Shown: piece after piece, positions 7,915-41,544 of the stretch
Numbering within the stretch: position 1 is the first letter of the stretch
How the letters are laid out: every line of letters starts with the position of its first letter
Notes under the pieces: generated by a model
The model's input: the letters and a program-made list of their open reading frames with translations, nothing else
What the model was told of the DNA's origin: nothing
The model's database searches: none
Made by a program: the position numbers and the translations under genes
From: Acidobacteriota bacterium
GTDB lineage: Bacteria; Acidobacteriota; Terriglobia; Terriglobales; Acidobacteriaceae
Length of the DNA stretch: 48,803 nucleotides
Assembly (NCBI GenBank): GCA_021792135.1
Contig: JAJYVF010000036.1
Location: 1-48,803 of the forward strand
Direction: 5' to 3'

Positions 7915-10900
7915 ATGCGTAGGAGAGTAATCCTTTGGCTTGCAATTCTGATGACCGTACCGGCCTTCGCCGCCAAACGCGTGACCGTCGATCAGTTAAG
8001 CCATGTGATCGTTTCTTCCCGTAAACAGAAGGATCCGAAGATTGCCCGGCGTCTCTACAATTTAGAACTGACGCAGCGGTTGAGCTCCAAGAGGCTCGTC
8101 GCTTTCGAGCAATCGCTCCCTGGGCCCAAGTCGCGCCGGGCGCTCGTGGTGCTTGCAGACCAGGCAGAATTTCTGGATCCGCCGCCCGCGGAAATTCCCG
8201 ATAAGCCGGCGCCCAGTTTCGATCAGCAACGCGCAATCATTGCCAAATCCATCGATTATGTCGAAGCCACGCTGCACCGGTTTCCGGACTTGTTTGCGCG
8301 TCGCGACACGATTCAGTACGAAGACACCCCATTTGGAGTACAGCAAGTCGATAGCGAATCTCCCCGAGGCACCTTCTCCGGTTACCAGCCGCTGCATCCC
8401 GTCAGCCGTTCGGTTGTGACGGTGCTCTACCGCGCTGGCCAGGAGATGGTCCAGAATGAGGCAGGACAGCAGAACAGCACAACTCCGGCGGCCGGTCTAA
8501 TGACGTATGGCGAGTTCGGCCCGATCTTTCCGGTTGTCTATGGAGATTTGCCCTACGGGAATCTGAGATGGAGTCACTGGGAGACCGGCCCGGCCGGTCT
8601 GGAAGCGGTGTTCCGTTTCGATGTACCCAAGCCCCACTCGCATTTTCTGGTACGATACTGCTGCATCGCCGGCAATGTCTTTCAGCAATTCCCCGCGTAT
8701 CACGGCGAGATCAGTATCGATCCATCCCAGGGAACAATTCTTCGTGTGACCCTCATAGCGGATATGGCCAAGAACGCCCCCATGACCAAAGCCGAACTGG
8801 TGCTGGAGTACGGGCCGGTTGAACTGGGAGGAAAGACATATTTTTGCCCGCGTAGGAGTATCTCCATCTCCCGCACCCGGGTACAGTGGGCTGGCGCGAG
8901 TGCGATTTCAGAAACCCCTTCATCCGCTTCCGGTGTGAACGCAGGGATTGTCCCAATGCAAACCATGATTCCAACGACCCACAGTTCAGGCGTGAGCGAA
9001 GCCGATGCTCCGCTGCAAACCATGCTGAATGAAGTGGTCTTCGATCACTATCATCTCTTTCGCGCCGACATGCATATCCTCACCGGCGACAACTCCCAGT
9101 CCGAATCGGCCGAAACGGCGGGCGAAAATGCTTCCTCCGGGTCCGCTGCATCGAATCCGGTCTCTCAGGCAGGGCCGTCAACCAGTATGAACAACCAGCC
9201 TTCGCCGGTGGCACCCGCAGCGAGCACGGTTGCGGCGGCCGAAGCGTCTCACCCGATGGCAGTCAAGAGTGCAACTCCTTCTGCCGCAACATCGCAGCCC
9301 GCGGCGCCCTATGGCGCGCCGGCAATGGCCAAGTCCGCAGCGCCCTCTTGTACGCCGGCCACAGCCCTCACTTCTACTGTGCCCAAGGAGTCCTCTGCAC
9401 CAGAGATGGCAGTTGTAGCGCCTGCGCCTTTTCTGCAATCGTCTACACTGGTTCCGGAGGCAGCCGGTAAATCGGGGTTTTCTCTCCGTGTTAATACTCG
9501 CCTTGTGAACGTAGACGTGACGGCATTCAACAAAAAGGGCCGTCCAATTACCGGCCTTACGAAGAAGGACTTCGTAGTCTACGACAACGGCAGGAGACAG
9601 ACTCTCCAATCATTCAGTCCCGTAAGCGCCGCCGCATCTCCGAGTCCCAGCTCCTTTGCCGCGGCGGCCAATCCCGTTCTCTACTCCAATCTTCCTGCTC
9701 CTTTTAGCAACGGCAGCGCGCAAGCTGCGGGCGCACCGGCTGCGGCAAGCTCGACCATTCTCCTCCTTGATCCGACGAGCCTTGACTTTGCCGATTTGAA
9801 CTATGCCCGCCATCAGATTCTCAAGTTTTTAGACCGGCTTCCCAGGTCCGAACCGGTGGGCCTCTACGTCCGGACAGGCTCCGCATTCCAAGTCCTGGCG
9901 CAAGAATCCACGGACCATGCCGCATTGAGTGCGGCGCTGCGGAAATGGATGCCGAATGCCCAGGATCTTGCCCGCGCGCAGGAGGAGGAGATGCGCAATC
10001 GGCAGCAGTTCGACACCGTTGAGTCTCCCAGCGAAATGCAGTATGTCAACGGCAACGTGCCCGGGATGATGTCAACGGCGAACAGTTCCGGCTCGCCAGG
10101 CCTAAGCACTGTCATGGTCAACCAAGGCGGAAACCCGAGCGAAGATCCGAAGCTGATGAAGGAAAGCCGAGACCCGGTTGGGCAGGCGCTTGCGGCTTTG
10201 ACCGCAGTTGCAGCGCGCATGGACGCCATCCCTGGGCAGAAGAACCTTGTCTGGGTGGCCAGCGACAACGTGCTGGCGGATTGGAGCGACCAGGCGCCGG
10301 GGATGGAGCAGGGCGAGGGCGCCAACATCATCGGCGCTCTGAGTCTGCGTGCTCAGGAGGCGCTCAACGATGCCCACGTCAGCCTCTACGCCCTGGATGC
10401 TTCCCAGTTAGAGACTGGGACGACGAATGCGAGCCTGCAGAACAACAGCGTACAGCTCAACCCTGCGGCCCTGAACGAGTACCCGGACGTGGGCGTTCAA
10501 TCGGCTCTGAAGGGCGGGCGCACCGCGGCCCAACTGCGGCAAGACGTGCACGCGGTTCAGCCGGCCATCCAGCACATGGCGGAGGCCACCGGAGGCCGAG
10601 CGTTCCCACGGGCGAGCAACATGGTTAATGAGTTGAACAGCGTGATTGAGGACGGCCATGCCGCTTACCTGCTGAGCTTCGCGCCCGACACGCCGCCGGA
10701 CGGTAAGTATCACCGGATCACGGTTACTGTTCCCACTCGGCGCGGAATCGAGCTGCGCTATCGTACTGGTTATCTCTACTCGAAAGAACCTACCACGCTG
10801 AAGGCCCGATTCCGGCAAGCGGTTTGGCAGCCTCAGGACGAAACCGGCATCGGCCTCACCGCCCACTGGGGTCAGGCTTCAGAAGGCGCTGCGGTATCGC

Positions 10901-11187
10901 TCCGGATCGCCGCTACAGACGTAGGTATGAGGCAGGAGGGCGGCCTGTGGACAGACAGGCTCGACATCTTTCTCGTACAGCGCGATAGAACGGGCATCCG
11001 TGCGATGGTGAAGGAGCAAACATTGGTGCTCAACCTGAAGCCCACCACATACCAAAGAGTGCTGTATGACGGCATCCCGTTTGCCGCATACATCGCACAC
11101 AAGCCGGACATCGGCACTGTGCGGATCGTCGTCGTCGACGAAAACTCCGGCCGGCTGGGTTCCATCACCCTTCCCGTTGCGCCATGA
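7915..11187 (+). CDS. VWFA-related domain protein (Acidobacterial type)
   Basis: A secreted protein of about 1090 residues. The start at 7915 is chosen because it gives an immediate signal peptide (MRRRVILWLAILMTVPAFA) with AAGGGG upstream; the same frame is open further 5' from 7732 but without such features. The first ~380 residues form an unrecognised domain. An Ala/Ser/Pro-rich linker follows (about 385-520). The hallmark block of the VWFA-related family comes next (about 525-570: RLVNVDVTAFNKKGRPITGL, KDFVVYDNG), then a VWA-like fold beginning ILLLDPTSLDFADLN near residue 612 and a beta-rich C-terminus. The classical DxSxS metal site is not obvious (DPTSLDF instead). The family is abundant in Acidobacteria and of unknown role; binding of envelope or extracellular protein partners is the usual guess. 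Confidence 0.9.
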   Translation: MRRRVILWLAILMTVPAFAAKRVTVDQLSHVIVSSRKQKDPKIARRLYNLELTQRLSSKRLVAFEQSLPGPKSRRALVVLADQAEFLDPPPAEIPDKPAPSFDQQRAIIAKSIDYVEATLHRFPDLFARRDTIQYEDTPFGVQQVDSESPRGTFSGYQPLHPVSRSVVTVLYRAGQEMVQNEAGQQNSTTPAAGLMTYGEFGPIFPVVYGDLPYGNLRWSHWETGPAGLEAVFRFDVPKPHSHFLVRYCCIAGNVFQQFPAYHGEISIDPSQGTILRVTLIADMAKNAPMTKAELVLEYGPVELGGKTYFCPRRSISISRTRVQWAGASAISETPSSASGVNAGIVPMQTMIPTTHSSGVSEADAPLQTMLNEVVFDHYHLFRADMHILTGDNSQSESAETAGENASSGSAASNPVSQAGPSTSMNNQPSPVAPAASTVAAAEASHPMAVKSATPSAATSQPAAPYGAPAMAKSAAPSCTPATALTSTVPKESSAPEMAVVAPAPFLQSSTLVPEAAGKSGFSLRVNTRLVNVDVTAFNKKGRPITGLTKKDFVVYDNGRRQTLQSFSPVSAAASPSPSSFAAAANPVLYSNLPAPFSNGSAQAAGAPAAASSTILLLDPTSLDFADLNYARHQILKFLDRLPRSEPVGLYVRTGSAFQVLAQESTDHAALSAALRKWMPNAQDLARAQEEEMRNRQQFDTVESPSEMQYVNGNVPGMMSTANSSGSPGLSTVMVNQGGNPSEDPKLMKESRDPVGQALAALTAVAARMDAIPGQKNLVWVASDNVLADWSDQAPGMEQGEGANIIGALSLRAQEALNDAHVSLYALDASQLETGTTNASLQNNSVQLNPAALNEYPDVGVQSALKGGRTAAQLRQDVHAVQPAIQHMAEATGGRAFPRASNMVNELNSVIEDGHAAYLLSFAPDTPPDGKYHRITVTVPTRRGIELRYRTGYLYSKEPTTLKARFRQAVWQPQDETGIGLTAHWGQASEGAAVSLRIAATDVGMRQEGGLWTDRLDIFLVQRDRTGIRAMVKEQTLVLNLKPTTYQRVLYDGIPFAAYIAHKPDIGTVRIVVVDENSGRLGSITLPVAP

Positions 11188-22694: not shown

Positions 22695-25600
22695 ATGCGG
22701 GTGCGAATTGCCGGGTATTTATTGCTTATAATCTTTTCCGCCAGGTATGCGTGCGCGGCGGCGGAAAAGCATGACAACCTGGAAGCGATACGGCTGAACA
22801 ATCAAGGCGTTGCGCTCATGGGTCAGCAGTTCACTGAGCGCGCCGCGGCGACTTTTGCTGAAGCCTTCAAGAAGGACCCAAGATTCGCGCAGGCTGAAAT
22901 CAACGAGGGCATTGCGTTCTACACGCTGCAAAAGCTGAATGACGCCGAGCAGGTGCTGCACAAGGCCATTGCCATCGACCCGAATAGCGCACAGGCCTGG
23001 TACAACCTGGGCTTGACGCAACATTCGATAAATGAGTTAGCGCAGGCAGTGGCCAGCTTCAAGCACGCGGCGGCTCTCGATCCCCACGATGCGGATTCGC
23101 TCTATTTCGAAGGCGCCTGCTATGAAGAGATGGGACAGTTCTCTAAGGCCATCCCGGTCTTTCAGAAGGTGCTTGCCATCGATCCCTTCCATGCCTCGGC
23201 GGAGTTCGGTCTGGCCCGGTCCTTGTTGCGCACGGGCCATACATCGGAGGCCAGGGAGGACTTCAAAGTTTTTCAGTACATGACGAGCACCAAGATTGGC
23301 ACGCCGATCGGCCTGACCTATGGAGAACAAGGGCACTACTCGACAGCCACGGCGGTGAAAGAGCCGGAGACCATTGAGCGCAAGATGATTCCAGTGCGTT
23401 TGGTAGCCGAGTCCATAATTTCCACGAACGCGCAGTCCGGCTGGACAACCACCGGCGGCGCGTGCATGATCGACGCCACCGGCTCCGGGCAGATGGATCT
23501 GGTGCTAATGCAGTCGGGCGCGCAGGCCATTCTCATCCTGCACCGGCGCAGCGATGGGAGCTTTGAACAGCTTGATGCACAGGCCATGGGGCTGAGGGTC
23601 AGCGGTCACGCCGTAGCCTGCGCCGTGGGAGATTACAACGGCGACAAGCTGAACGATCTGGCGGTGGCCATGGATGACGCGGTGCTTCTCTTCCGTAACC
23701 TGGGGCACGGCAAGTTCCAGAACGTTACGGCGAAAGCAGGCCTGGCGCCGCGCAACCGGCCGACTGGAATCACGTTTATCGACTACGATCACGACGGCGA
23801 CCTAGACCTCTTCCTCACTGGATCGCCCCTGAAACCCGGCGGCGAGTCCAATGTGCTTTGGCGCAACAATGGTAACGGCACGTTTACCGAGCAGACCCAG
23901 GAGACCGGATTGGGTGGAAGCGGCAAGACCGCGGCCGCAATTCTGACTGACTTCAACAACGATCGCGCCGTGGATATTGCGGTGACCGGCAATGGAGCCG
24001 CGCCCACTTTGTATATCAACCCACGCGAGGGCAAGTGGCCCACGCAGCCGTTGTATGAGGGCAAAAATCTACCTCCCACGACGGGCATCGCTGTCTTCGA
24101 CTACAACAAAGACGGCTGGATGGACATTGCCGTCACTCATGCAGGACCGCCGGGACTCACCTTGTGGCGCAATGTTGCAGCCCCCAATCACATAGCCCGG
24201 CGTTTTGAACGTGTACCGCTGCCTCTGCATAGCGCCTTGCGCGGCTGGGGCCTGACGCCCATCGACATCGACAATGACGGTTGGATCGATCTCGCCGCAA
24301 TCGTGGATACGAAATCCGGTCCCCAGGTGCGGGTCTTCCGCAACCGGGGGAACGGCACTTTTCAGGATGTGAGTAGCGCACTGGGGCTCGACAAGGTGAA
24401 GCTCAAGGCTCCGCGCGGACTGATTGCGGCCGATCTGGAAAACGACGGCGCCGCGGACCTGATTGTTACCCAGCGCAATGCGCCGCCCGTGCTGCTGCGC
24501 AATGTGGGCGCGAACAAGAACCACTTTGTACGCCTCGACCTCACGGGCAATGCCGACAACAAAACCGGATTGGGCATCAAGGTAGAGGTCTTCGCCAACG
24601 GCCTCTGGCAAAAGTGGGAGTTACCGGGTGCATCTGGCTACCAAACGCAAGGGCCGCCGCAGATTCTGGTTGGACTGGGCAAGGCCGAAGGCATCGACCT
24701 GCTGCGCATCCTGTGGCCCACCGGCGTCTTGCAGGACGAAATCAATCTGCCGCACACAGAAACCATCGCCAAGAGCGAGGTTGACCGGCGTGGCAGCTCC
24801 TGCCCGGTTTTGTTTGTGTGGAACGGGCGCAAGTACAAGTTCGTCACCGACGTGCTAGGCGCAGGAGTGATTGGACACTGGTTTACGCCCACGCGGCACA
24901 ACATTCCCCGCCCCAGCGAGTGGGTCAAGATTGACGGCGCCGATGTGGCTCCGGTGAACGGGAAAATCAGTGTGCGCTTCATGGAACCGATGGAGGAAGT
25001 GAACTACATCGACCAGGTGCGGCTGGTTGCCGTGGATCACCCCGATAACGTGAAAGTGAATCCCGACGAGCGGTTCCTCGACTATCCCCCGTTCGCTTCA
25101 GGCCGCGTGGTGGCCAGCGTGGACGCGCGGCCGCCGGCAGGGGCATGGGACGGCGAGGGCCGCAACGTGCTGGGCAAATTGCTCCGGCGCGATCACCGAT
25201 TTGCCAGCGGATTTACTCCGCTGCCGTATGACGGCTTCGCCAATCTCCATGCGTTGACGTTGGATCTGGGTAGGATCGATCCCAAGGCGCCCTTACGGCT
25301 GCTCTTGACAGGTTATGTTGACTACTTCAGCGCCACGTCGCTCTACGCGGCTTGGCAGGCGGGCGTGCGGCCGATCGCCCCCTACGTCGAGGCGCAGCTC
25401 GCTGACGGCGAATGGCGGCGTATCACCGGCGAGGCTGGATTTCCCGCCGGCCTGGAGCGCACCATCGTCGTGAACCTGACGGGCAAGCTGCCGCCCGGCA
25501 CGCACCGCATCCGCCTCATGACCAATCTCCAGATTTACTGGGACCAAGTGCTCATCGACAACCATGCCCAGGGCAAATTCCGCACCACTGAGTTGCCGCT

Positions 25601-26129
25601 CGACTTCGCCACCGAGCAGTTCCAAGGCTATCCCAAGGAGATCGACGGCGCCAGTCCTGGCGATCTCAGCTACAACTACAACCTCGTGAGCCTCACCGGG
25701 CCCTTTCAGCGCGAGCGCGGCGATTACACGCATTTCGGCGATGTAACTCCGCTTCTCAAAAACGCCGATGACCGCTTTGCCATCTTCGGCAGCGGCGAAG
25801 GCATTGCAGCGGAGTTCGATGCATCTGAGCTGCCCCCGCTGCGGCCGGGCTGGAAGCGCGATTACTTCTTCTACGCAAACGGATACGAAAAGGACATGGA
25901 CTGGTGGGATTCCGCGCCATTTACCGTGGCGCCGCTTCCGTTCCATGAGATGATCTCCTACCCGTATCCCGCGAACGAAGGCTTTCCGGCGAGCGCCGCC
26001 GCGCTTCGGTATCGCCTGAACTGGAACAATCGTTATGTTTCGGGCAAGCCCACGGGGTTGCACCTGTTCAACTATCAATGGCTACCGTCCACGCCGCGGG
26101 ACGATCGTACCGATGATATACGGAAGTAG
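22695..26129 (+). CDS. TPR / FG-GAP / ASPIC-UnbV fusion protein with long unknown C-terminal region
   Basis: A very large exported protein (1144 residues). In order: a signal peptide (VRIAGYLLLIIFSARYACA); about five TPR units (25-190, e.g. AEQVLHKAIAIDPNSAQAWY); FG-GAP/VCBS blades with calcium loops (DYDHDGDLDLFLTG, DYNKDGWMDIAVTH, DIDNDGWIDLAAI; about 230-600); an ASPIC/UnbV domain (about 608-690: GIKVEVFANG, ILWPTGVLQDEI); then some 430 residues with no domain I can name. That tail starts at a conserved-looking GSSCPVLFVWNGRKYKFVTD and includes beta-rich and aromatic-rich blocks (TGYVDYFSATSLYAAW, RIRLMTNLQIYWDQVLIDN). The ribosome site is weak. It stands alone, divergent from the sugar operon. 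Calcium-dependent extracellular binding plus protein scaffolding is inference. Confidence 0.9.
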   Translation: MRVRIAGYLLLIIFSARYACAAAEKHDNLEAIRLNNQGVALMGQQFTERAAATFAEAFKKDPRFAQAEINEGIAFYTLQKLNDAEQVLHKAIAIDPNSAQAWYNLGLTQHSINELAQAVASFKHAAALDPHDADSLYFEGACYEEMGQFSKAIPVFQKVLAIDPFHASAEFGLARSLLRTGHTSEAREDFKVFQYMTSTKIGTPIGLTYGEQGHYSTATAVKEPETIERKMIPVRLVAESIISTNAQSGWTTTGGACMIDATGSGQMDLVLMQSGAQAILILHRRSDGSFEQLDAQAMGLRVSGHAVACAVGDYNGDKLNDLAVAMDDAVLLFRNLGHGKFQNVTAKAGLAPRNRPTGITFIDYDHDGDLDLFLTGSPLKPGGESNVLWRNNGNGTFTEQTQETGLGGSGKTAAAILTDFNNDRAVDIAVTGNGAAPTLYINPREGKWPTQPLYEGKNLPPTTGIAVFDYNKDGWMDIAVTHAGPPGLTLWRNVAAPNHIARRFERVPLPLHSALRGWGLTPIDIDNDGWIDLAAIVDTKSGPQVRVFRNRGNGTFQDVSSALGLDKVKLKAPRGLIAADLENDGAADLIVTQRNAPPVLLRNVGANKNHFVRLDLTGNADNKTGLGIKVEVFANGLWQKWELPGASGYQTQGPPQILVGLGKAEGIDLLRILWPTGVLQDEINLPHTETIAKSEVDRRGSSCPVLFVWNGRKYKFVTDVLGAGVIGHWFTPTRHNIPRPSEWVKIDGADVAPVNGKISVRFMEPMEEVNYIDQVRLVAVDHPDNVKVNPDERFLDYPPFASGRVVASVDARPPAGAWDGEGRNVLGKLLRRDHRFASGFTPLPYDGFANLHALTLDLGRIDPKAPLRLLLTGYVDYFSATSLYAAWQAGVRPIAPYVEAQLADGEWRRITGEAGFPAGLERTIVVNLTGKLPPGTHRIRLMTNLQIYWDQVLIDNHAQGKFRTTELPLDFATEQFQGYPKEIDGASPGDLSYNYNLVSLTGPFQRERGDYTHFGDVTPLLKNADDRFAIFGSGEGIAAEFDASELPPLRPGWKRDYFFYANGYEKDMDWWDSAPFTVAPLPFHEMISYPYPANEGFPASAAALRYRLNWNNRYVSGKPTGLHLFNYQWLPSTPRDDRTDDIRK

Positions 26130-28468: not shown

Positions 28469-29350
28469 GTGCGCGGCACGTGGCAAGAACGGTTTGCCGG
28501 AACCCCGGATGTCTTAAGGGGCGGACGGCGGCAGCAAACGATCGTCCCGGTCCTGGATATCGAGATTGGCGGGGATGAGTTTGTCACCATGGCAGGGCCG
28601 TGCTCGGTTGAAACCGAGTCCCAGCTTATGGCCACCGCCCGTTTTGTTTGCCGCTCGGGCGCGCGTATCCTGCGCGGCGGCGCCTTCAAGCCGCGCAGTT
28701 CTCCCTACTCCTTTCAAGGTCATGGTCTTGCGGGGCTGCAGATGCTGGCACGCGCCCGAGCCGAGTACGGCCTGGCTATCGTCACCGAGGTCATGTCGGA
28801 GTGCGACGTGCCGCTGGTGGCCGAGTACGCCGACATTCTGCAGATCGGCTCGCGCAGCATGGAGAACTACTCGCTTCTGGAGGCTGCCGCGCGCTCCGGA
28901 CGGCCTGTGCTTCTGAAGCGAGGAATGGTGGCTACGGTCGCCGACCTGCTTCACTCTGCGCAGGTGATCCTGGAAAACGGCAATCCCTATGTAATTCTTT
29001 GCGAACGCGGCATCCGCACCTTTGAAACCGCGCTGCGCAACACCTTCGATGCCGCGGCCATCGCCTTGCTCAAGCATGTCTCGCACCTGCCGGTGATCGC
29101 CGATCCCAGCCACGCGGCCGGACATCGCGCCCTGGTTCCCGCGCTGGCGCGCATTGCGGTGGCCGCGGGCGCCGACGGCCTGCTGGTTGAAGTTCACCCC
29201 GATCCCGATAAGGCTTGGAGCGACGGCGAGCAGTCGCTGGATTTCGCCGAATTCGGCGCCATGATGGATGCGCTCAATCCCTACCTCGCACTGCGCCCGG
29301 GTGCACTGGGCGAGCTGGCCGGTGCGCGGCCGATGGAGGTCGCCGGATGA
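28469..29350 (+). CDS. aroF: 3-deoxy-7-phosphoheptulonate (DAHP) synthase, class I-beta
   Basis: About 293 residues. This enzyme condenses phosphoenolpyruvate with erythrose 4-phosphate, the first step of the shikimate pathway. Key motifs of the I-beta/KDO8P-like group are intact: MAGPCSVE (metal-binding Cys), [60 protein letters not shown] (metal His) and [17 protein letters not shown]. The start is uncertain: the GTG at 28469 has GGAG 8 nt upstream and is preferred; a GTG at 28370 is an alternative. Neither choice gives the N-terminal ferredoxin-like or chorismate-mutase regulatory domain, so it would be an unregulated form. Its stop overlaps the next start (ATGA), coupling it to a haem-protein gene, which is odd for a shikimate enzyme. 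Confidence 0.9.
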
Positions 29351-30765
29351 GGGATCGGGTCTGGTTCTTTTTAATCGTCCTCAGTGCAGTACTGCTTGCG
29401 CCCTTGCGCGCCTTACCGCCCCGCACGGCGGATCGGGTGGGAGCGGATTTCATTGTCACCGCCGCACCCGTTTACATCCCTCTGGCGGAGCTGCACGGCC
29501 ATGAGCGATTCCCCCGTGGAGCACAGTTGCTGCTGGTCCGCGACGGCGAGGCCGCGCCGCTCGTGGCCGGCTTCGCCGATACCGCGGACGCCAACGTCTC
29601 CTTCGACGCCCAAAGGGTGCTCTTCGCAGGCAAACGCGCGGCCGGCGATCCGTGGCAGATTTGGGAGCTCACGCTCAAGGATGGTTCGGTACGGAAGGTC
29701 ATTGACACTCAGACCGATGCCGAGCGGCCCTTTTATCTGCCCGGCGGCCGCATGGTCTGGGCGCAGCGCACCGCCTCCGGATTCCGCATCGAGTCCGCCA
29801 GGGACGGCCATCCGCCCAAGGTCCCGTTCCTGAACCCGACCGCGGGTCCCGGCGTGCTTCCGCTCACTTACATCCAAACCAGCGCCTTTCCCACTGCCAT
29901 CCTGGCTGACGGACGCATTCTCTTTGAGTCCGGCTACCCGCTCGGAGCGGGCGCGATTCCGGAGCTGTATGTGGTTTACGCCGACGGCTCCGGCGTGGAA
30001 TCGTACCGCTGCGATCACGGCCGCGCCCGCTGGGGCGGTTCGCAACTGGCCTCTGGCGACGTGGTATTCACGCATGGCAGGTCGCTGGCGCGGTTTACTT
30101 CTGCGCTGGCGCAGGAGACTCCGGTCACCGCGCCCCCTGCTGAATACGCCGGCGCGATTGCCGAGACGGCTTCCGGCGAATGGCTGTTCAGCGCGCGCAA
30201 AGCCGGCGCAACGCATTACGCCATCGATCTGTGGAGGCCAGGCTCCCCGTCGCTGGAAAACGTACTGGCCAAGCGCGGCGAGAACCTCGTCGAGCCGGTG
30301 CTGGTGGCCCAGCGCACTCCACCCCGGCGGTTTCCGTCGGATCTGCACCCCTGGAACTACGCCAATCTGCTGGCGCTCGACTCGCGGCTGTCGCTCGCAG
30401 GGAATTTGAAGCGAACGCCCGCATCGGTCCGCCTTGAGACGCAAGACCGGAATGGCCGTGTTCAAGTCAACGGCACGGCGCCGGTCGCCCCCGACGGCTC
30501 CTTCTTTGTGAAAGTTCCCGGCGACCGCCCTATTCGCTTTCTCCTGCTCGATCGGAAGGGCGCCGTGCTGCGCCGCGAACACGGGTGGTTCTGGAGCCGC
30601 GGCGGCGAACAGCGCACCTGCGCCGGTTGCCACGCGGGACCGGCGCTCTCGCCGGAAAATCGCGTGCCTGCCGTGTTGTTGCGCACCACCACCCCGGTTG
30701 ACCTGACCGGCGATCCACTCCGCACATCGATGCGCGCCGATGTGCAGGAAGGCAACAAGAGATGA
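29347..30765 (+). CDS. One-haem propeller protein with hydrazine-synthase-alpha-like middle domain
   Basis: A 472-residue exported protein. Signal peptide at the N-terminus ([18 protein letters not shown]), then a TolB-like six-bladed-type propeller (about 40-330: [42 protein letters not shown]). Next comes a domain with [34 protein letters not shown] and a final haem c motif CAGCH (425-429) in [20 protein letters not shown]. This propeller plus NGTAP...GCH order matches the middle domain named after the hydrazine synthase alpha subunit (HzsA). HzsA itself is longer and has a second haem domain, missing here. It overlaps both neighbours by 4 bp, the downstream partners being an FG-GAP protein and a YVTN-cytochrome fusion. 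The substrate is unknown; hydrazine chemistry is not implied by the domain alone. Confidence 0.85.
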
Positions 30766-32528
30766 TCCTTCGCTCTTTGCTTTTTTTCTTGGGCGCCGTC
30801 TCGCTTGCCGCGGCGCAAAACGCCGCACCTGCGGTGCAGTCTCAGTCGAATGCCGGGCAAGCGCCGGGCCAACCGGCGATCCGCTTTGAAGACGCCACCC
30901 AGCAGTCCGGAATCCACTTCGTCCACAGCTTCGGCTCCGCCAAACTGAGTTCGCTGCTCGAAGGCACAGGCGCTGGCTGTTTGTGGTTCGACTACAACAA
31001 CTCCGGCCGCGAGTCTCTTTTCGTCGTCAACGGCCGCACGCTGCCCCCTGACATGACGCCCAATCCTCTCAAGGTCAAGCCTAATCCGCCGCCCCATGCC
31101 CATCTGTATCGTAATGACGGCAACGGTCATTTCACCGATGTGACCAAGCAAGCCGGTCTCGATCCGAATCTCTATGGCATAGCAGTCACCGCAGCGGACT
31201 ACGACAACGACGGCTATGAAGATCTGCTGGTGACCAGCTACGGCAAAGTGGTTCTTTACCACAACAACGGTGACGGCACCTTTACCGATGTGACCAAGCA
31301 AGCCGGCATCAAGGTAACCGGATGGTCCATCAGCTCCACTTGGCTCGACTACGACCGGGATGGCTGCGTGGATCTCTTCGTCGGCCGGTACGTCCAGTTC
31401 GATCCCAAATACCGCGCCTATTATGCGGCGGACAATTATCCCGGGCCGCTTGACTATGCGGGCCAAACCAACATGTTGTTTCACAACAACTGCAACGGCA
31501 CGTTTACCAACGTATCCGATAAGTCGGGAATCAGCGCCTACATCGGCCGCACCATGGGCGTGACCGCGGCGGATTTCGACAACGATGGATGGGACGACAT
31601 CTACGTCACCAATGACAACATTCCAAACTTCCTCTTCCACAACATGCACAATGGAACCTTCGAGGAGATCGCCAATAATGCCGGCGCGGCCTATGGAGAA
31701 GATGGCGAAGCAACATCGTCTATGGGTCCGGTTGCGGCGGACTTCTGGAACCGGGGAATGTTAGACCTCTGGGTGACGGACGGAAGCTATAACCGTTTCT
31801 TGAAGAATCTGGGCGCTCCGCAACTCGGATCTTCCCCGCCAAAGCCGGATTGGCAAGGGTTTGAGGATGTTACTGCGGCCAGCGGCATCTCCCAGGTCGA
31901 GGGGCAATACGTGAGCTGGGGCAGCGGCGTTTACGACTTCGACAATGACGGCCTGCTCGACATCCTGGTCCTTCACGGCGGGCTGACCCACATGATTCCG
32001 ATGGAGCACACCCTCTTCCGCGGGTTAGGGGGTGGCAAGTTTGAGGATGTGTCGCGCCAGGCCGGTCCCGTGCTGAGTGTACGCACTGTAGCGCGCGGCG
32101 CCTGTTTTGCCGACTACATGAACGACGGCAAAGTTGGCGCCTACGTGGTCAATCTCGGATCGGAGGGAACGCTGCTTCACAACGTTTCTACCAACACCGG
32201 CCACTGGGTCGAGATCAAGCTCGTCGGCGCCATGAGAAAGGGCGATGCGGGCGTGGCGGCCGGGAATCCTATAGCCAGGAGCAACCGCGACGGCATCGGC
32301 GCGCGCATCGAGGTCTTCGCCGGGGGCGTGCGCCGGACCGCAGAGCGAGTGGCAAGTTCCGGCTATCTCTCGCAGAATGACGGCCGCGTTCACTTTGGCT
32401 TAGGCAAGGCAACGGTCATCGACAAACTGGTCGTGCGCTGGCCTAGCGGAATCGTGCAGACACTCACCAATCAGCCGGTTGATGGCGTGCTCACGGTGCG
32501 TGAGCCTGGAAGAGGGGAGCCGCGATGA
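30762..32528 (+). CDS. FG-GAP repeat / ASPIC-UnbV (CRTAC1-like) protein
   Basis: A 588-residue exported protein: signal peptide ([19 protein letters not shown]), then the family opening IRFEDATQQSGIHFVHSFGS. FG-GAP/VCBS blades follow with calcium loops (DYDNDGYEDLLVTSYG, DYDRDGCVDLFVGRYV, DFDNDGWDDIYVTND), then a C-terminal ASPIC/UnbV domain (about 480-575: IGARIEVFAGGVRR, SSGYLSQNDGRVHFGLG, VRWPSGI). Both ends overlap neighbouring genes by 4 bp, so its production is tied to the haem proteins on either side. It contains two 23-bp identical DNA repeats (31134-31156, 31284-31306) encoding TDVTKQAG, 150 bp apart. It may act as a calcium-dependent scaffold or substrate-binding subunit (inference). 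Confidence 0.92.
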   Translation: MILRSLLFFLGAVSLAAAQNAAPAVQSQSNAGQAPGQPAIRFEDATQQSGIHFVHSFGSAKLSSLLEGTGAGCLWFDYNNSGRESLFVVNGRTLPPDMTPNPLKVKPNPPPHAHLYRNDGNGHFTDVTKQAGLDPNLYGIAVTAADYDNDGYEDLLVTSYGKVVLYHNNGDGTFTDVTKQAGIKVTGWSISSTWLDYDRDGCVDLFVGRYVQFDPKYRAYYAADNYPGPLDYAGQTNMLFHNNCNGTFTNVSDKSGISAYIGRTMGVTAADFDNDGWDDIYVTNDNIPNFLFHNMHNGTFEEIANNAGAAYGEDGEATSSMGPVAADFWNRGMLDLWVTDGSYNRFLKNLGAPQLGSSPPKPDWQGFEDVTAASGISQVEGQYVSWGSGVYDFDNDGLLDILVLHGGLTHMIPMEHTLFRGLGGGKFEDVSRQAGPVLSVRTVARGACFADYMNDGKVGAYVVNLGSEGTLLHNVSTNTGHWVEIKLVGAMRKGDAGVAAGNPIARSNRDGIGARIEVFAGGVRRTAERVASSGYLSQNDGRVHFGLGKATVIDKLVVRWPSGIVQTLTNQPVDGVLTVREPGRGEPR

Positions 32529-34573
32529 ACCGGACCGGGCGAAGCGGACGCGGAGTGCCGGCCCTCCGGGTGGCGGCTCTCGCTGCGCTGATTGCGGTAT
32601 TGCTGTTCATGGTGTCGTGGCGCGTCCGCTCCGTCCACGCCGCCGCTCCTCAAACCGGCGCAATTCTGGGCTACGCCTCTCCCGTGGAATTGCTGTTTTC
32701 GCCAGACGGAGCGCGGCTCTATGTGCTCTGCCAGGATAGCGGCGAGGTGCGAGTGCTGAATGCCACAACTTACGCCCCCATCAAGACCATCGCCGTTGGC
32801 CACGTGCCGCGCGGGTTCTTCCTTTCTTCCAACGGAAGCCGGCTGTTCGTAGCCAACTCCTGGGACGACACCATCTCCGTGATCGACACCCGTGCGCTGA
32901 AGGTGGTTGACACATGGCATGTGGGAATGGAGCCCTCGAGTGTGGTTGAGGGACCCGCGGGCAAGTACCTCTACGTCGCCAATCGCATCAGCAACGACGT
33001 AGCCGTGCTGAACGCCCGGAACGGCGCGGAGGTGAAGCGGCTGGCGGCCGGGCGCGGCGCGAGCTACATGACGCTTTCACCCAACCGAAGCCGGCTCTAT
33101 GTCACCCATGTTTATCCCAACCCCACGCCCTCGCGCACGCCGCCGGAATCGGAAGTCACGGTCATCGATACAGCAACCGCCGAGGTGGTCAATCGCATTC
33201 CCTTGCACAGCATTGCCGGCGTCTTTCATCTCGCGTTTACCGCCGATGGCCGGCTAGGCGTCGTGGCCGAGCTGTATCCCAAAAATCTGGTGCCGATGAC
33301 GCAGGTAGAGCACGGCTGGATCTTCGAGGATACGCTCACGCTATTTGGCCCCGATGTGGGCAACAAGACCGTCGAAGTGCCGCTGGACGACCTGGACAGC
33401 TTTGCCGCCCGTCCCTTCGGCGTGGCCATTACGCCGGATAATTCGCGCATTTATGTCAGTTGCGGCGGCTCGGAACTCGTTACCGTCATCAGCCTCCCGC
33501 ACCTGCTGCGTTATGTCCATACCCATCGCGCGCCCATCGTGTACAACCTTGCCGCCAGCGGCCATTACGTGATTAATCGTATCCCGGTGGGTCATGACCC
33601 GCGCGGCGTGGCGCTCAGCCCCCATTGGCGCCGCCTGCTGGTAGCGAACCGGCTCGACGACACCATCAGTGTGATCGATACGCACACTAACAAGATCGTC
33701 TCGACGATTCATCTCGCCGGATCGAAGAATCTATGGTCTCTGCACTTCGGCCTGCAGATGTTCGCTGCGATGACCGTCTCCTCGCCGGGGAAGAGGCGGT
33801 GCGCCGCCTGCCATATCGACGCGCGGCATCGTAATGCCAAAAGGATGAATCTGAGCGGGATCAAGGAAGCTCAGGCGCTGCGCCGCGGCCAACAGGCCTT
33901 CTATTCGACCCGCTACTCCTTTCATGGTGGTGACGCCTGCGCCAACTGCCACATTGATTCCACCTTCGACGGGCTGCAGTGGGACTTTGAGCCGGACGGC
34001 CTGGGCCGGAACATTGTGGATGTTATGGAGCTGGAAGACATCAGAGACACTGCGCCCTACGATTGGAGCGGCGTCAACCCCAACCTTCCCACCCAGTGCG
34101 GGCCGCGGACAGAATTGTTTATGTGGCGCTCACAGAATTATGGCGTCCGTACCCTCGCCGATATAACCGCCTACATCAACAGCCTGCCGCCGCGGCCCAA
34201 TCGCTGGCACCTGCCCGGCGGCAAGCTGACGCCGGCGCAGGAGCGCGGCCAGGAAATCTTCGATCGCACAGCAGATGACTTCGGCAAGCCCATCCCGCTG
34301 ACCAACCGCTGCAACTTTTGCCACAGCGGCCCGCTGGGGACCGACCACAAGAAGTTCGACGTGGGAACCAAGGGACGGCACGATGATTCAGGATTGTTCG
34401 TAACGCCGTCGTTGGCCGACATCGCCCTCACCGCGCCTTACCTGCACAACGGCAAGGCCGCAACGCTTGAGGAGATCTGGACCATCTACAACCCCCACGA
34501 CCAGCACGGCCGCACCAATGACCTGACCAAGGACCAACTGAACGACCTGATCGACTACCTGCGGACGCGATGA
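32525..34573 (+). CDS. YVTN beta-propeller fused to three-CxxCH MauG/cytochrome-peroxidase-like domain
   Basis: A 682-residue exported protein. An N-terminal anchor (VAALAALIAVLLFMVSW) is followed by a seven-bladed YVTN/NHL-like propeller (about 45-415: SPDGARLYVLCQDSGEVRVL, SNGSRLFVANSWDDTISVID, LLVANRLDDTISVIDTHTNK). A peroxidase/MauG-like cytochrome domain completes it. Haem c sites are CAACH (about 426-430), CANCH (472-476) and CNFCH (596-600), and the end has the family signature TPSLADIALTAPYLHNGKAA. The order propeller-then-dihaem-cytochrome is that of HzsB followed by HzsC, which I recall as fused in some anammox bacteria. With the HzsA-like gene two upstream it suggests a hydrazine-synthase-shaped complex, although similar YVTN-cytochrome proteins are also common in other bacteria. 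Start overlaps the FG-GAP stop by 4 bp. Confidence 0.9.
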   Translation: MNRTGRSGRGVPALRVAALAALIAVLLFMVSWRVRSVHAAAPQTGAILGYASPVELLFSPDGARLYVLCQDSGEVRVLNATTYAPIKTIAVGHVPRGFFLSSNGSRLFVANSWDDTISVIDTRALKVVDTWHVGMEPSSVVEGPAGKYLYVANRISNDVAVLNARNGAEVKRLAAGRGASYMTLSPNRSRLYVTHVYPNPTPSRTPPESEVTVIDTATAEVVNRIPLHSIAGVFHLAFTADGRLGVVAELYPKNLVPMTQVEHGWIFEDTLTLFGPDVGNKTVEVPLDDLDSFAARPFGVAITPDNSRIYVSCGGSELVTVISLPHLLRYVHTHRAPIVYNLAASGHYVINRIPVGHDPRGVALSPHWRRLLVANRLDDTISVIDTHTNKIVSTIHLAGSKNLWSLHFGLQMFAAMTVSSPGKRRCAACHIDARHRNAKRMNLSGIKEAQALRRGQQAFYSTRYSFHGGDACANCHIDSTFDGLQWDFEPDGLGRNIVDVMELEDIRDTAPYDWSGVNPNLPTQCGPRTELFMWRSQNYGVRTLADITAYINSLPPRPNRWHLPGGKLTPAQERGQEIFDRTADDFGKPIPLTNRCNFCHSGPLGTDHKKFDVGTKGRHDDSGLFVTPSLADIALTAPYLHNGKAATLEEIWTIYNPHDQHGRTNDLTKDQLNDLIDYLRTR

Positions 34574-38233: not shown

Positions 38234-38625
38234 GCCTCGGATCTTCAATCTCGATGTCTTCTGGCGCCGCCTGCCACCGGCCACTTCACAAGCCTGACCA
38301 TTTTTCTACGGCAAAACCCGAGCAGGTGTGTCCTGTTCAGTTCTGTGCACGGCCGCCGCGCATTGGGGTTGCGGCAGCTGGAGTGTCTTGGCTTTTGGAT
38401 AGAGCATCTCCGGCTTTCCAACAGGCATAGGCCGAAACATGATCGCAAGTGATAAACGCAGTCAACCTGTTTTGACCCGCGCGCTCTCCACTCGCAGGAT
38501 GAGATAGACATACATCGAATGATGGATAGGAAGACCGCTGTTAAACGGTTACTATGTTGCTGCCGGATCAGAAGAGAGGCGCTGAGTCCGCAAAGCCTCG
38601 CAAACTTCCCTGGAGGCCGAGAGAC
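38234..38625. other. Intergenic gap inside the redox cluster
   Basis: About 390 bp with no gene I believe in. It divides the cluster into two likely transcription units. The inverted repeat GTCAA-cctgtt-TTGAC (38461-38476) overlaps a -35-like TTGACC at 38472, but no good -10 follows at 16-18 bp. The next frame is open from an ATG at 38554 that has no ribosome site. No U-tract terminator follows the upstream gene. Confidence 0.4.
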
Positions 38626-41544
38626 GTGTCCATCAGACGATTCCTGATTGCTGGGGTTCTTGCCCTTGCAGGCAGCGCGCTCTATTTGTATGCGTTTCCC
38701 GCGGCTACCATTTTCTACGAGTCCGTCGTTCTGCTCCATATTCTTGCCGGGACGATCTTCCTCGTCTTCGCGTTGCCGTGGATGGCTCGCCTGATGCGGG
38801 ATCGCATCTGGTGGGAAAAGCTGGGTTGGGCGGTGGTGCTGTTCGGAGGAGCCTTCGGTGCGGCTATCATCTTTACGGGCGCGCGCCGCAACATGTGGCC
38901 CGTCCTCTACACTCACGAGGTTGCCAGCATAGCTGGCTGTGCGCTGCTGCTGTTCGTCTGGAGCGGGCGCCAGCGATGGCTTGGCCGGCTGCGCGGCGGC
39001 GCCCGGCGCGATTCGGCCCGGCTGGCCTGTTGCCTCGCTCTGGCCGCAGGCGTGGCCGCCGGAGCGTGGTGGGTGCGTACCGTGCCGTGGCAGCGTGAAA
39101 ACGTTATCTACAACCCCTCTATCGCGCCGGCTTCCATGTACCAGGAAGGCGCCGGCCCCAAGGGCCAATTCTTTCCCGCTTCGGCTATGACCGCATCTGG
39201 CAAGACTATTCCCGGAGATTTCTTCGTCGATTCAAAAGCCTGCGAAAAGTGCCATGCCGACATCTACCGCCAGTGGGAAAGCTCCGCTCATCACTTTTCT
39301 TCGTTCAACAATCAGTGGTATCGCCAGGCCATCGTCTACATGCAGGGTGTAGAGGGTGTCCAGCCTTCCAAGTTTTGCGCCGGCTGTCACGATCCGGCGC
39401 TCCTTTTCCCCGGCAAATTCAACACGCCCATTCAGAACCGCATCTTCACGCCCGCCGCGCAGGCCGGCATCGGCTGCATGGTCTGCCACTCCATCCGCAT
39501 GGTGCGCAGCACCATGGGTAACGGCAGCTATACGATTGAGTACCCGGCCCTGTTCAAGCTGGTTGACACCAAAAACCCCTTGCTGCGCAGGCTCATTGAC
39601 TTTCTCATCGAAGAGGACCCCGAGCCCCACCGCCGCACCTTCATGAAGCCGTTTATGCAAAACAACCCGGCGGAATTTTGCTCCGCCTGCCACAAGGTCC
39701 ACCTCGATGTGCCGGTGAATCACTACCGCTGGGTGCGCGGCTTTAACGACTACGACAATTGGCAGGCCAGCGGCGTGTCGGGATTCGGCGCGCGCTCGTT
39801 TTACTATCCGCCCCATCCGGAAAATTGTGTTGACTGCCATATGCACATGGTCGGTTCGAACGATGCCGGCAATGTCAACGGCTTCATTCATTCGCATCGC
39901 TTTATCGCCGCCAACACGGCGTTGCCCTTGGTAAACAAAGACCAGACCCAGCTCGAGGACACCGAGCGGTTCCTTCAGGATCACAAGGTCAGCGTGGACA
40001 TCTTCGCCATTTCGCCGGAAACCGGGGCAAACCGCATCCTACAAGCCTCGGCCGCGTCGCCCATGCAGGCGGAAACCACCTTCGCCGTGGGTGAAGAGGC
40101 CGAGCGCCACATCACGGGCATGACCGGCGAAGTGCATGTCGCTCCCGTCACCGCGCCGCTCAATCGCGTGGCGGGAATCGTCGTTCCGGGGGAAACGGCC
40201 CGGGTGGATGTGGTCGTCCGCACCCTCGGCGTCGGTCATTTCTTCCCCGGCGGCACCGTAGACGCCGTCGACTGCTGGCTGGAGCTGAAAGCCACCGACG
40301 ACCGCGGCAAGGTTCTCTTCTGGAGCGGGATGGCCGAGGATCACGGCAAAGGCCCCGTCGATCCGGGCGCGGAGTTCTACCGCTCGCTCGCCATCGACGC
40401 GCACGGCAACGCCACCGATAAGCGCAACGCCTGGGCCGACCGCGCCACCGTTTACGTGCACCTGATTCCGCCCGGCGCCGCAGACACGGTTCACTACCGT
40501 CTGCACATTCCCAGGGACGCGCATGGACACATCCACCTGCTGGCGCGGCTCAACTACCGAAAGTTCGCATGGATCAACACGCAGTTTGCCTTTGCCGGCA
40601 AGTTCTTGAGCACGGGCCCCCATGACGTTGCGCCCGCCTACGACGACCGCCGCATGGTCTTCACCGCCAGCACCGCGGATGTCTCCGGCAAGATCAAGGC
40701 CATTCCCAACCTTCCCATCGTGGTCATGGCGCAGTCCACCGCGGATTTGACCGTGTTGCGGCCCGGTGCGCCGCTGCCCACGGCAAAAATCGCCACCGAA
40801 AAGATCGATTGGCGACGCTGGAACGACTACGGCATCGGCCTCTATCTCCAGGGCGATCTCAGGGCCGCGGAAACGGCTTTCATTCATGCTACGCAGGCTG
40901 ATCCCAACAATCCCGATGGCTGGGTGAACATCGGGCGCGTGCGCCTCGATGAGGGCAATCTCGTCAGCGCCACGCAGGCGCTGGACAAAGCACTGCAGCT
41001 CTCGCCCCATTTGGCCCGCACCCACTACTTTTTGTCCCGGATTCTGAGCGAGCAGGGCAAGTATCACGCCGCCATAGCCCAGTTGAAACTCGTCATCGCG
41101 CAATATCCCTACGACCGTGTGGTGCGTAACGACCTGGGCCGCGTGTATTTTCTTGAGCGCCGCTACGCCCTGGCGCGCAGCCAGTTTCTGAAGGTCATCG
41201 CCATCGATCCCGAAAACCTGGAGGCGAATTACAACCTGATGCTCTGCTACACCGGCCTTGGCAACGACAAATTATCCGCGGCCTACCAGGAAAGATACAT
41301 GCGCTTCAAGGCCAATGAAGCTGCGCAGACGCTTACCGGCCCGTACCGCGCCAAACATCCCTTCGACAATCTGGAGAGGCAGCCGATCCACGAGCACCAA
41401 TCCGTGCCGCTGGCTGAAGCCAACGCCAACAACGGAGTGGAGAAGAACCTCGTGCTGCTGCCTTCGGCGCTGGCAACTTCAGCAAGGCAGACTCCACCGC
41501 GGCCGTCCGCGCAATGGGCTCAGCTCGGCGGAGGTGCGCGTTGA
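38626..41544 (+). CDS. Membrane-anchored five-haem cytochrome c fused to TPR repeats
   Basis: About 972 residues. The GTG at 38626 has a strong GGAGG 9 nt upstream and is preferred to the ATG at 38554, which has none. Four or five membrane segments come first (about 5-165: FLIAGVLALAGSALYLY, ESVVLLHILAGTIFLVFALP, EVASIAGCALLLFVW). A periplasmic cytochrome-c554-like domain follows with five haem sites: CEKCH (206), CAGCH (251), CMVCH (284), CSACH (352) and CVDCH (401), the first in the typical CHADIYRQWESSAH context. A beta-rich region (to about 730) and about four C-terminal TPRs finish it. His residues in two membrane helices (LLHILAG, YTHEVAS) could bind haem b and allow quinone exchange (inference). 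Its stop overlaps the next start. Confidence 0.9.
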   Translation: MSIRRFLIAGVLALAGSALYLYAFPAATIFYESVVLLHILAGTIFLVFALPWMARLMRDRIWWEKLGWAVVLFGGAFGAAIIFTGARRNMWPVLYTHEVASIAGCALLLFVWSGRQRWLGRLRGGARRDSARLACCLALAAGVAAGAWWVRTVPWQRENVIYNPSIAPASMYQEGAGPKGQFFPASAMTASGKTIPGDFFVDSKACEKCHADIYRQWESSAHHFSSFNNQWYRQAIVYMQGVEGVQPSKFCAGCHDPALLFPGKFNTPIQNRIFTPAAQAGIGCMVCHSIRMVRSTMGNGSYTIEYPALFKLVDTKNPLLRRLIDFLIEEDPEPHRRTFMKPFMQNNPAEFCSACHKVHLDVPVNHYRWVRGFNDYDNWQASGVSGFGARSFYYPPHPENCVDCHMHMVGSNDAGNVNGFIHSHRFIAANTALPLVNKDQTQLEDTERFLQDHKVSVDIFAISPETGANRILQASAASPMQAETTFAVGEEAERHITGMTGEVHVAPVTAPLNRVAGIVVPGETARVDVVVRTLGVGHFFPGGTVDAVDCWLELKATDDRGKVLFWSGMAEDHGKGPVDPGAEFYRSLAIDAHGNATDKRNAWADRATVYVHLIPPGAADTVHYRLHIPRDAHGHIHLLARLNYRKFAWINTQFAFAGKFLSTGPHDVAPAYDDRRMVFTASTADVSGKIKAIPNLPIVVMAQSTADLTVLRPGAPLPTAKIATEKIDWRRWNDYGIGLYLQGDLRAAETAFIHATQADPNNPDGWVNIGRVRLDEGNLVSATQALDKALQLSPHLARTHYFLSRILSEQGKYHAAIAQLKLVIAQYPYDRVVRNDLGRVYFLERRYALARSQFLKVIAIDPENLEANYNLMLCYTGLGNDKLSAAYQERYMRFKANEAAQTLTGPYRAKHPFDNLERQPIHEHQSVPLAEANANNGVEKNLVLLPSALATSARQTPPRPSAQWAQLGGGAR

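Follow-up and report, generated by a model that had tools for sequence, protein, structure and literature searches.

Divergent homologues of the three hydrazine synthase subunits encoded in a conserved operon of Acidobacteriota

Hydrazine synthase (HZS), the key enzyme of anammox bacteria, was thought to be without relatives (PMC12758564). Could three genes of a soil acidobacterium nevertheless be related to it, and what might they do there? The genes, designated A, FG and BC, lie in a DNA stretch of 48,803 nucleotides (the window; positions 1 to 48,803, forward strand, of contig JAJYVF010000036.1) from Acidobacteriota bacterium, assembly GCA_021792135.1 (GTDB lineage Terriglobia; Terriglobales; Acidobacteriaceae). 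An original prediction, made from the sequence, had proposed that they encode an HzsA-like propeller protein with one haem, an FG-GAP/UnbV protein and a propeller fused to a multi-haem cytochrome. Our analysis shows that the three genes encode divergent homologues of the alpha, beta and gamma subunits of HZS and belong to an operon conserved in Acidobacteriota. The resemblance to HZS is already in print: clusters of alpha, FG-GAP and beta-gamma genes were published in December 2025 by Hagglund et al., with Paludibaculum in clade I (PMC12758564). The trio is of this known kind. What we add to the main text of that paper is two recurring neighbours, found in more than one gene order: a paralogue of AroF, a 3-deoxy-D-arabino-heptulosonate 7-phosphate (DAHP) synthase, and a Rid-family protein.

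Kinship of the three proteins

Coordinates, order and the two 4-bp overlaps of the three genes (Table 1; each junction reads ATGA) agreed with the prediction. The AroF-like gene upstream also shares a 4-bp overlap with gene A, indicating that the operon is larger than the trio. Protein A matched the Pfam family HZS_alpha with 53 bits (cut-off 26.6), a profile without matches in any of 14 control genomes. When the PDB was searched with the single sequence, HzsA (5c2v_A, E = 1.3e-7) was the sole match up to E = 10. A profile of 24 A homologues reached the same chain at 2.4e-25 in two stretches in order, followed by TolB propellers at 2.8e-8. The predicted model (mean predicted local distance difference test, pLDDT, of 81.6) gave the same ranking by Foldseek, with 5c2v_A as the top PDB match (E = 4.6e-20; TM-scores of 0.67 by query and 0.43 by target) and TolB next. 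The fold search, which might have placed the protein outside the HzsA group, thus found HzsA nearest, as the prediction had supposed. Protein A (472 residues) contains only one CxxCH motif, CAGCH, and lacks the second alpha haem (alpha-II); the surrounding CxGCHxGP motif is present in 79 of 79 homologues.

The assignment of FG was borne out by five FG-GAP_3 stretches and an UnbV_ASPIC domain (Pfam). We rejected the further suggestion that this subunit stands in for the second HzsA haem domain, as clade I of PMC12758564 has FG-GAP between alpha and beta-gamma although its alpha retains haem II (except in O. terrae).

Among PDB sequences, BC matched HzsB (6.7e-35) and then HzsC (4.7e-17), in that order along the protein, consistent with the predicted fusion. 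The match to HzsB is not unique: the archaeal 1l0q_A, a plain YVTN propeller, outscored it in both sequence searches. BC carries three CxxCH motifs, of which CAACH is the extra one. The motif CNFCH lies outside the HzsC alignments obtained, and its pairing with haem gamma-II follows from motif order. In the predicted model of BC (mean pLDDT 70.5) the propeller is good and the haem domain poor; the top Foldseek match is HzsB (5c2v_B, E = 5.7e-27, TM-score by target 0.85). Kinship of the trio with HZS is therefore based on sequence for all subunits and on fold for A and the BC propeller.

Conservation and recurring partner genes

We surveyed 120 genomes of the order and 297 of the phylum at a BC threshold of E = 1e-40, scoring BC in the first 10 candidates per genome for the order and the first 4 for the phylum, so that individual misses of BC are possible in both surveys. 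The genomes are related, and the counts are not independent trials. HZS_alpha was found in 24 of the 120 order genomes and BC in the same 24, each of which has an A and a BC on a single contig, separated by a few kb, so that the co-occurrence anticipated in the prediction was observed. In the phylum, 31 of 297 genomes contained HZS_alpha and 16 contained BC, with 14 common to both lists. In 11 of the shared genomes A and BC lie near each other on a single contig; in G214, G267 and G336, which are assemblies of at least 650 contigs, they are on different contigs. Among the 31 HZS_alpha-positive genomes, many matches of those without BC sit in frames of 700–1400 residues, and the domain therefore occurs in other, larger proteins too.

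Loci arranged like the window (type 1) were taken as the best 80 of 206 relatives by the A profile; L050, whose A frame was removed by the overlap filter, was left out of the gene counts, and each gene was counted only in loci with room for it on the contig. A was accompanied by AroF in 72/76 loci, FG in 72/73, BC in 68/68, a regulator-type propeller protein (REGP) in 63/64, the Rid-family protein (RID) in 57/63 and a substrate-binding protein (SBP) in 56/57. One of these loci comes from a named strain, Occallatibacter savannae AB23 (L087). A second arrangement (type 2; L115–L119, from G078 and from four genomes that belong to a different family of the order) has an A of about 30% identity, then FG, BC and REGP. 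RID is present in four of these five loci (not found in L117), and an intact AroF stands at another place in L115–L118 (not found in L119). SBP was found in all five and a second SBP in four, the stretch of L118 ending at that point. Ten further phylum loci (L143–L152) included L152, which is without A, and three cut by contig ends (L146, L149, L151) that were left out of the AroF count. AroF was present at differing places in four of the six judgeable loci (L143, L144, L145, L150) and absent from L147 and L148. REGP and SBP accompany BC in L143–L150, and RID accompanies A in L143, L144 and L150. FG lies between A and BC in L147 and L148, and upstream of A in L143–L146 and L149; the latter order is that of clade III in PMC12758564, from which the window differs in this respect.

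The source genome has three A copies, located in the window, on contig 48 and on contig 76. On contig 48 (L032, 6934–9194) AroF and A stand alone. On contig 76 (L031, 191–6254) a divergent A–BC pair precedes genes for a GMC oxidoreductase and a Gluconate_2-dh3 protein. A GMC oxidoreductase is also present in three of the five type-2 loci, the stretches of L118 and L119 ending before that place. These neighbours would fit an electron-transfer module: a GMC/gluconate-dehydrogenase-like enzyme oxidising a sugar or alcohol would hand its electrons to A and BC, which would relay them, and SBP would sense or bind the substrate of that dehydrogenase. Matches of BC to the pyrroloquinoline quinone (PQQ)-associated propeller model TIGR03866 (119.9 bits, under the cut-off of 287.3) and of a type-2 SBP to TIGR03863 (weak, 21.1 bits) point the same way. 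However, tblastn with the contig-76 GMC and subunit-3 proteins gave no match in the 80 type-1 loci, and the module would leave the DAHP-synthase and Rid genes unexplained; we consider it unlikely.

With TIGR01361, the window AroF scored 350.9 bits, above the DAHP-synthase cut-off of 267.75. Two other DAHP synthases above the cut-off are encoded on contigs 77 and 58 of the same genome, and the operon copy is therefore an extra one; it reads GSRSMEN where they read GARNMQN. A surplus DAHP synthase is often a sign that a product derived from chorismate has a supply of its own, as in phenazine clusters. Since the gene recurs at differing positions and from different AroF subfamilies, we regard its association with the trio as the most informative new clue. 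A single shared origin of this association is not supported by a small tree, which does not join the type-1 and type-2 operon copies. In the Rid-family proteins of these operons an N-terminal stretch is conserved, and at least 97% of the 64 sequences aligned have Ser at what we take to be the place of the catalytic Arg of RidA (Ser134 in the window). They thus appear to form a Rid subfamily of their own that lacks this arginine. The main text of PMC12758564 mentions neither DAHP, deoxy-7-phosphoheptulonate, RidA nor endoribonuclease. Together with the named strain, the recurring partners (AroF paralogue, Rid protein and SBP) provide handles on the role of the HZS scaffold outside anammox and on its origin.

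Haem-site residues and possible chemistry

The sites were compared with the active site of HZS as given in PMC12607021; gamma numbering uses an offset of 39, derived from the published Cys102/His106. At the column of alpha Tyr591 (aligned to CHYGSY of HzsA) the window has Ala433, and the 47 rows have Glu (41) or Ala (6). Of the two HzsA ligands that had been proposed for checking, the tyrosine is thus not conserved. The zinc ligand gave no uniform answer: C222, in the RCDH motif of A, falls one column off alpha Cys303 with low posterior in HMMER and elsewhere in MAFFT, and the type-1 profile leaves the region unaligned. RCDH is present in all but two of the 79 type-1 homologues (L035 and L037). 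Among the best 80 of 206, the A nearest to that of the window belongs to L035 (A at 9546–10964, BC to 14775), a locus that lacks both RCDH (C222) and C525 of BC. This twin loss of RCDH and the Cys165 equivalent may reflect a linkage of the two sites. In L036 the BC cysteine is lost and RCDH is not.

In BC, residues H476, W514, E530, H600 and H661 were found in 47 of 47 rows and C525 in 44; the exact string CGPRTE occurs in 56 of 65 homologues. C525, W514 and H661 align with residues 126, 105 and 293 of 5c2v chain C, corresponding to gamma Cys165, His144 and His332. C525 is therefore a candidate for the third cysteine bond to the haem, and His144 is replaced by Trp throughout. The trio resembles HZS (5c2v) in that homologues of all three subunits are encoded together, the middle domain of alpha has one haem, and C525 and H661 stand at the Cys165 and His332 columns; fusion of beta and gamma is published for the HZS of Scalindua. 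In contrast to HZS, it lacks Tyr591 and the alpha-II haem domain and has Trp for His144; BC also has one haem motif more, and alpha is encoded upstream of beta-gamma, with an FG-GAP gene between them.

That the operon encodes a true hydrazine synthase, and the source thus is an unrecognised anammox-like organism, would fit the presence of three homologous subunits in one operon. The NCBIfam hydrazine synthase models NF052339 and NF052342 were, however, matched far under their cut-offs (47.3 against 800 and 155 against 1250 bits). The hydrazine dehydrogenase/HAO family (PF13447) had no match in the source genome, with the same search also blank in the 14 controls. Since the trio has neither Tyr591 nor the second HzsA haem domain, carries Trp for gamma His144 and misses the curated cut-offs, it is most likely not a hydrazine synthase; we regard the anammox-like organism as almost certainly a wrong reading, in line with the prediction, which had called anammox chemistry unlikely.

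PMC12758564 rejects a true hydrazine synthase for its clades; it describes the missing Tyr591, Trp in place of His144 (clades I–III, as here) and a Cys165 equivalent in clade I. The window shares with clades I and II the order alpha, FG-GAP (CRTAC1), fused beta-gamma; with clades II and III an alpha without haem II; and with clade III the presence of one additional haem motif and of downstream SBP genes. PMC10732223 describes hzs-like genes in metagenome-assembled genomes of Phycisphaerae and KSB1, suggests a wider enzyme family with other substrates and proposes anammox as possible for some Phycisphaerae. There, too, an hzsA-like gene lies directly upstream of a fused hzsBC-like gene, but the phyla are others, and no FG-GAP, DAHP-synthase or Rid partner is mentioned in its accessible text. 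Nothing here supports anammox for the source genome. In the accessible text of PMC12758564, PMC12607021 and PMC10732223 the homologues of HZS carry no tested function; a search of the open-access literature listed no functional study of these clusters, and the accessible text of PMC3174227 contains nothing on them.

The aligned C525 and H661 and the homology of all subunits are also compatible with a nitrogen-oxide enzyme. BC would then reduce NO or a related species, as proposed for HZS gamma, and A would handle the product, either for detoxification or to form N-N or N-C bonds. Trp in place of His144, the missing Tyr591, the loss of C525 in three of 47 rows and a conserved neighbourhood in which no nitrogen-oxide gene was seen make this very unlikely.

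The C-terminal half of BC matched Pfam CCP_MauG (PF03150) with 36.9 bits (cut-off 25.6, which no single stretch passes alone). Further matches were to the MbnH-type model TIGR04039 (44.7 bits, under the cut-off of 362.85), to the solved di-haem enzyme 6e1c (6.1e-10) and to MauG (1.1e-4). W514 stands at the position that PMC12758564 gives for the catalytic Trp of MauG, MbnH and di-haem peroxidases, with the invariant acid E530 nearby. BC could accordingly belong to a protein-modifying system of the MauG/MbnH kind, oxidising residues of a partner (A, FG or REGP) and thereby maturing it, and the operon encodes several partner proteins predicted to be exported. Unlike these enzymes, however, BC is fused to an HzsB-type propeller, its H661 aligns with HZS His332, and by sequence its haem domain is nearer HzsC than MauG. 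Protein A also has a conserved haem of its own, and AroF and RID would have no role; we judge such a system quite unlikely.

We tentatively favour, at a little less than even confidence, an extracytoplasmic haem complex of A, FG and BC that follows the HZS plan with MauG/peroxidase-type chemistry and possibly acts on a shikimate-derived aromatic. The three proteins would be exported and assemble, FG included, into a redox complex. Within BC, electrons would pass between the CNFCH haem, whose ligands are probably two histidines (H600, H661), and a catalytic CANCH haem, for which the candidate third cysteine bond (C525), W514 and the acidic E530 suggest chemistry as in MauG and bacterial peroxidases. 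An oxidising equivalent or a small reactive species may then reach the haem of A and act there on a substrate. As this haem lacks the HZS tyrosine ligand, hydrazine is most likely not the product. More weakly, the substrate might be a small aromatic or related shikimate-derived compound, supplied by way of the AroF paralogue and the Rid-family protein and perhaps bound outside by SBP.

Several observations weigh against this proposal. The window AroF, scoring above the DAHP-synthase cut-off, may simply serve bulk aromatic synthesis. The chorismatase match of RID is weak (33.6 bits, cut-off 325), and the solved relatives listed are RidA-type proteins. Neither AroF nor RID is indispensable: the former is absent from four type-1 loci and from L119, L147 and L148, the latter from several loci. 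The BC haem domain, mostly at pLDDT 34–50, is too poorly modelled to show active-site geometry, and HzsC was not among the best 50 Foldseek matches of the BC model, which leaves sequence as the sole basis for the kinship of this domain. C525 is lost in L035, L036 and L089. In the phylum, 17 of the 31 HZS_alpha-positive genomes were without BC at the threshold used, and two of the 16 BC-positive ones (G128, G379) were without A. In the source genome itself, contig 62 (L034, 320–8413, minus strand) carries FG, BC, REGP, RID and SBP without A, with a degraded AroF fragment upstream; this set and the AroF–A pair on contig 48 are possibly the two halves of one former operon.

A bolder version extends the proposed complex to a whole pathway on the HZS scaffold. 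AroF and the atypical Rid protein would make the aromatic, and the exported A-FG-BC complex, with an HZS-style cross-linked haem, would oxidise or couple it, perhaps to a nitrogen species, while the RCDH of type-1 A may rebuild the HzsA zinc site. We consider this version improbable as a whole. If true, it would give the HZS fold a non-anammox function and a candidate ancestral chemistry.

Features of the locus

Table 1. Features of the operon and of the gene preceding it (window positions)
Feature	Position	Strand	Remark
Amidase-signature enzyme, 482 aa	26866..28314	+	Pfam Amidase, 330 bits
DAHP-synthase-like paralogue (AroF)	28469..29350	+	GTG start inferred from homologues; TIGR01361, 350.9 bits
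Gene A, 472 aa: HzsA-like propeller and HZS_alpha middle domain with a single haem motif	29347..30765	+	
RCDH motif of A, residues 221-224	30007..30018	+	77/79 type-1 homologues, 0/6 type-2 rows
CAGCH haem motif of A, residues 425-429	30619..30633	+	Aligned with CSGCH of HzsA
FG: FG-GAP/UnbV (CRTAC1-like) protein, 588 aa	30762..32528	+	
Gene BC, 682 aa: fusion of an HzsB-like propeller with an HzsC-like cytochrome	32525..34573	+	
Extra haem motif CAACH of BC, residues 426-430	33800..33814	+	Third motif in 11/65 homologues
Haem motif CANCH of BC, residues 472-476	33938..33952	+	Counterpart of haem gamma-I
Haem motif CNFCH of BC, residues 596-600	34310..34324	+	Taken as haem gamma-II counterpart; invariant in 47/47
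REGP: regulator-type propeller protein, 365 aa	34581..35678	+	Pfam Reg_prop
RID: Rid-family protein, 166 aa	35691..36191	+	Ser134 at the RidA catalytic Arg place
SBP: Peripla_BP_6 substrate-binding protein, 678 aa	36197..38233	+	Pfam

Of the 80 type-1 loci, those cut by contig ends included, 44 have a homologue of the amidase gene upstream of A and on its strand. Downstream of the operon, a multi-haem protein with five CxxCH motifs, a cytochrome c554-type region and tetratricopeptide repeats (TPRs) is encoded at 38554–41544 and was matched in only four of the 80 loci. Upstream, a protein with TPRs and FG-GAP/UnbV domains is encoded at 22695–26129, and many loci (uncounted) have a homologue about as far from the operon.

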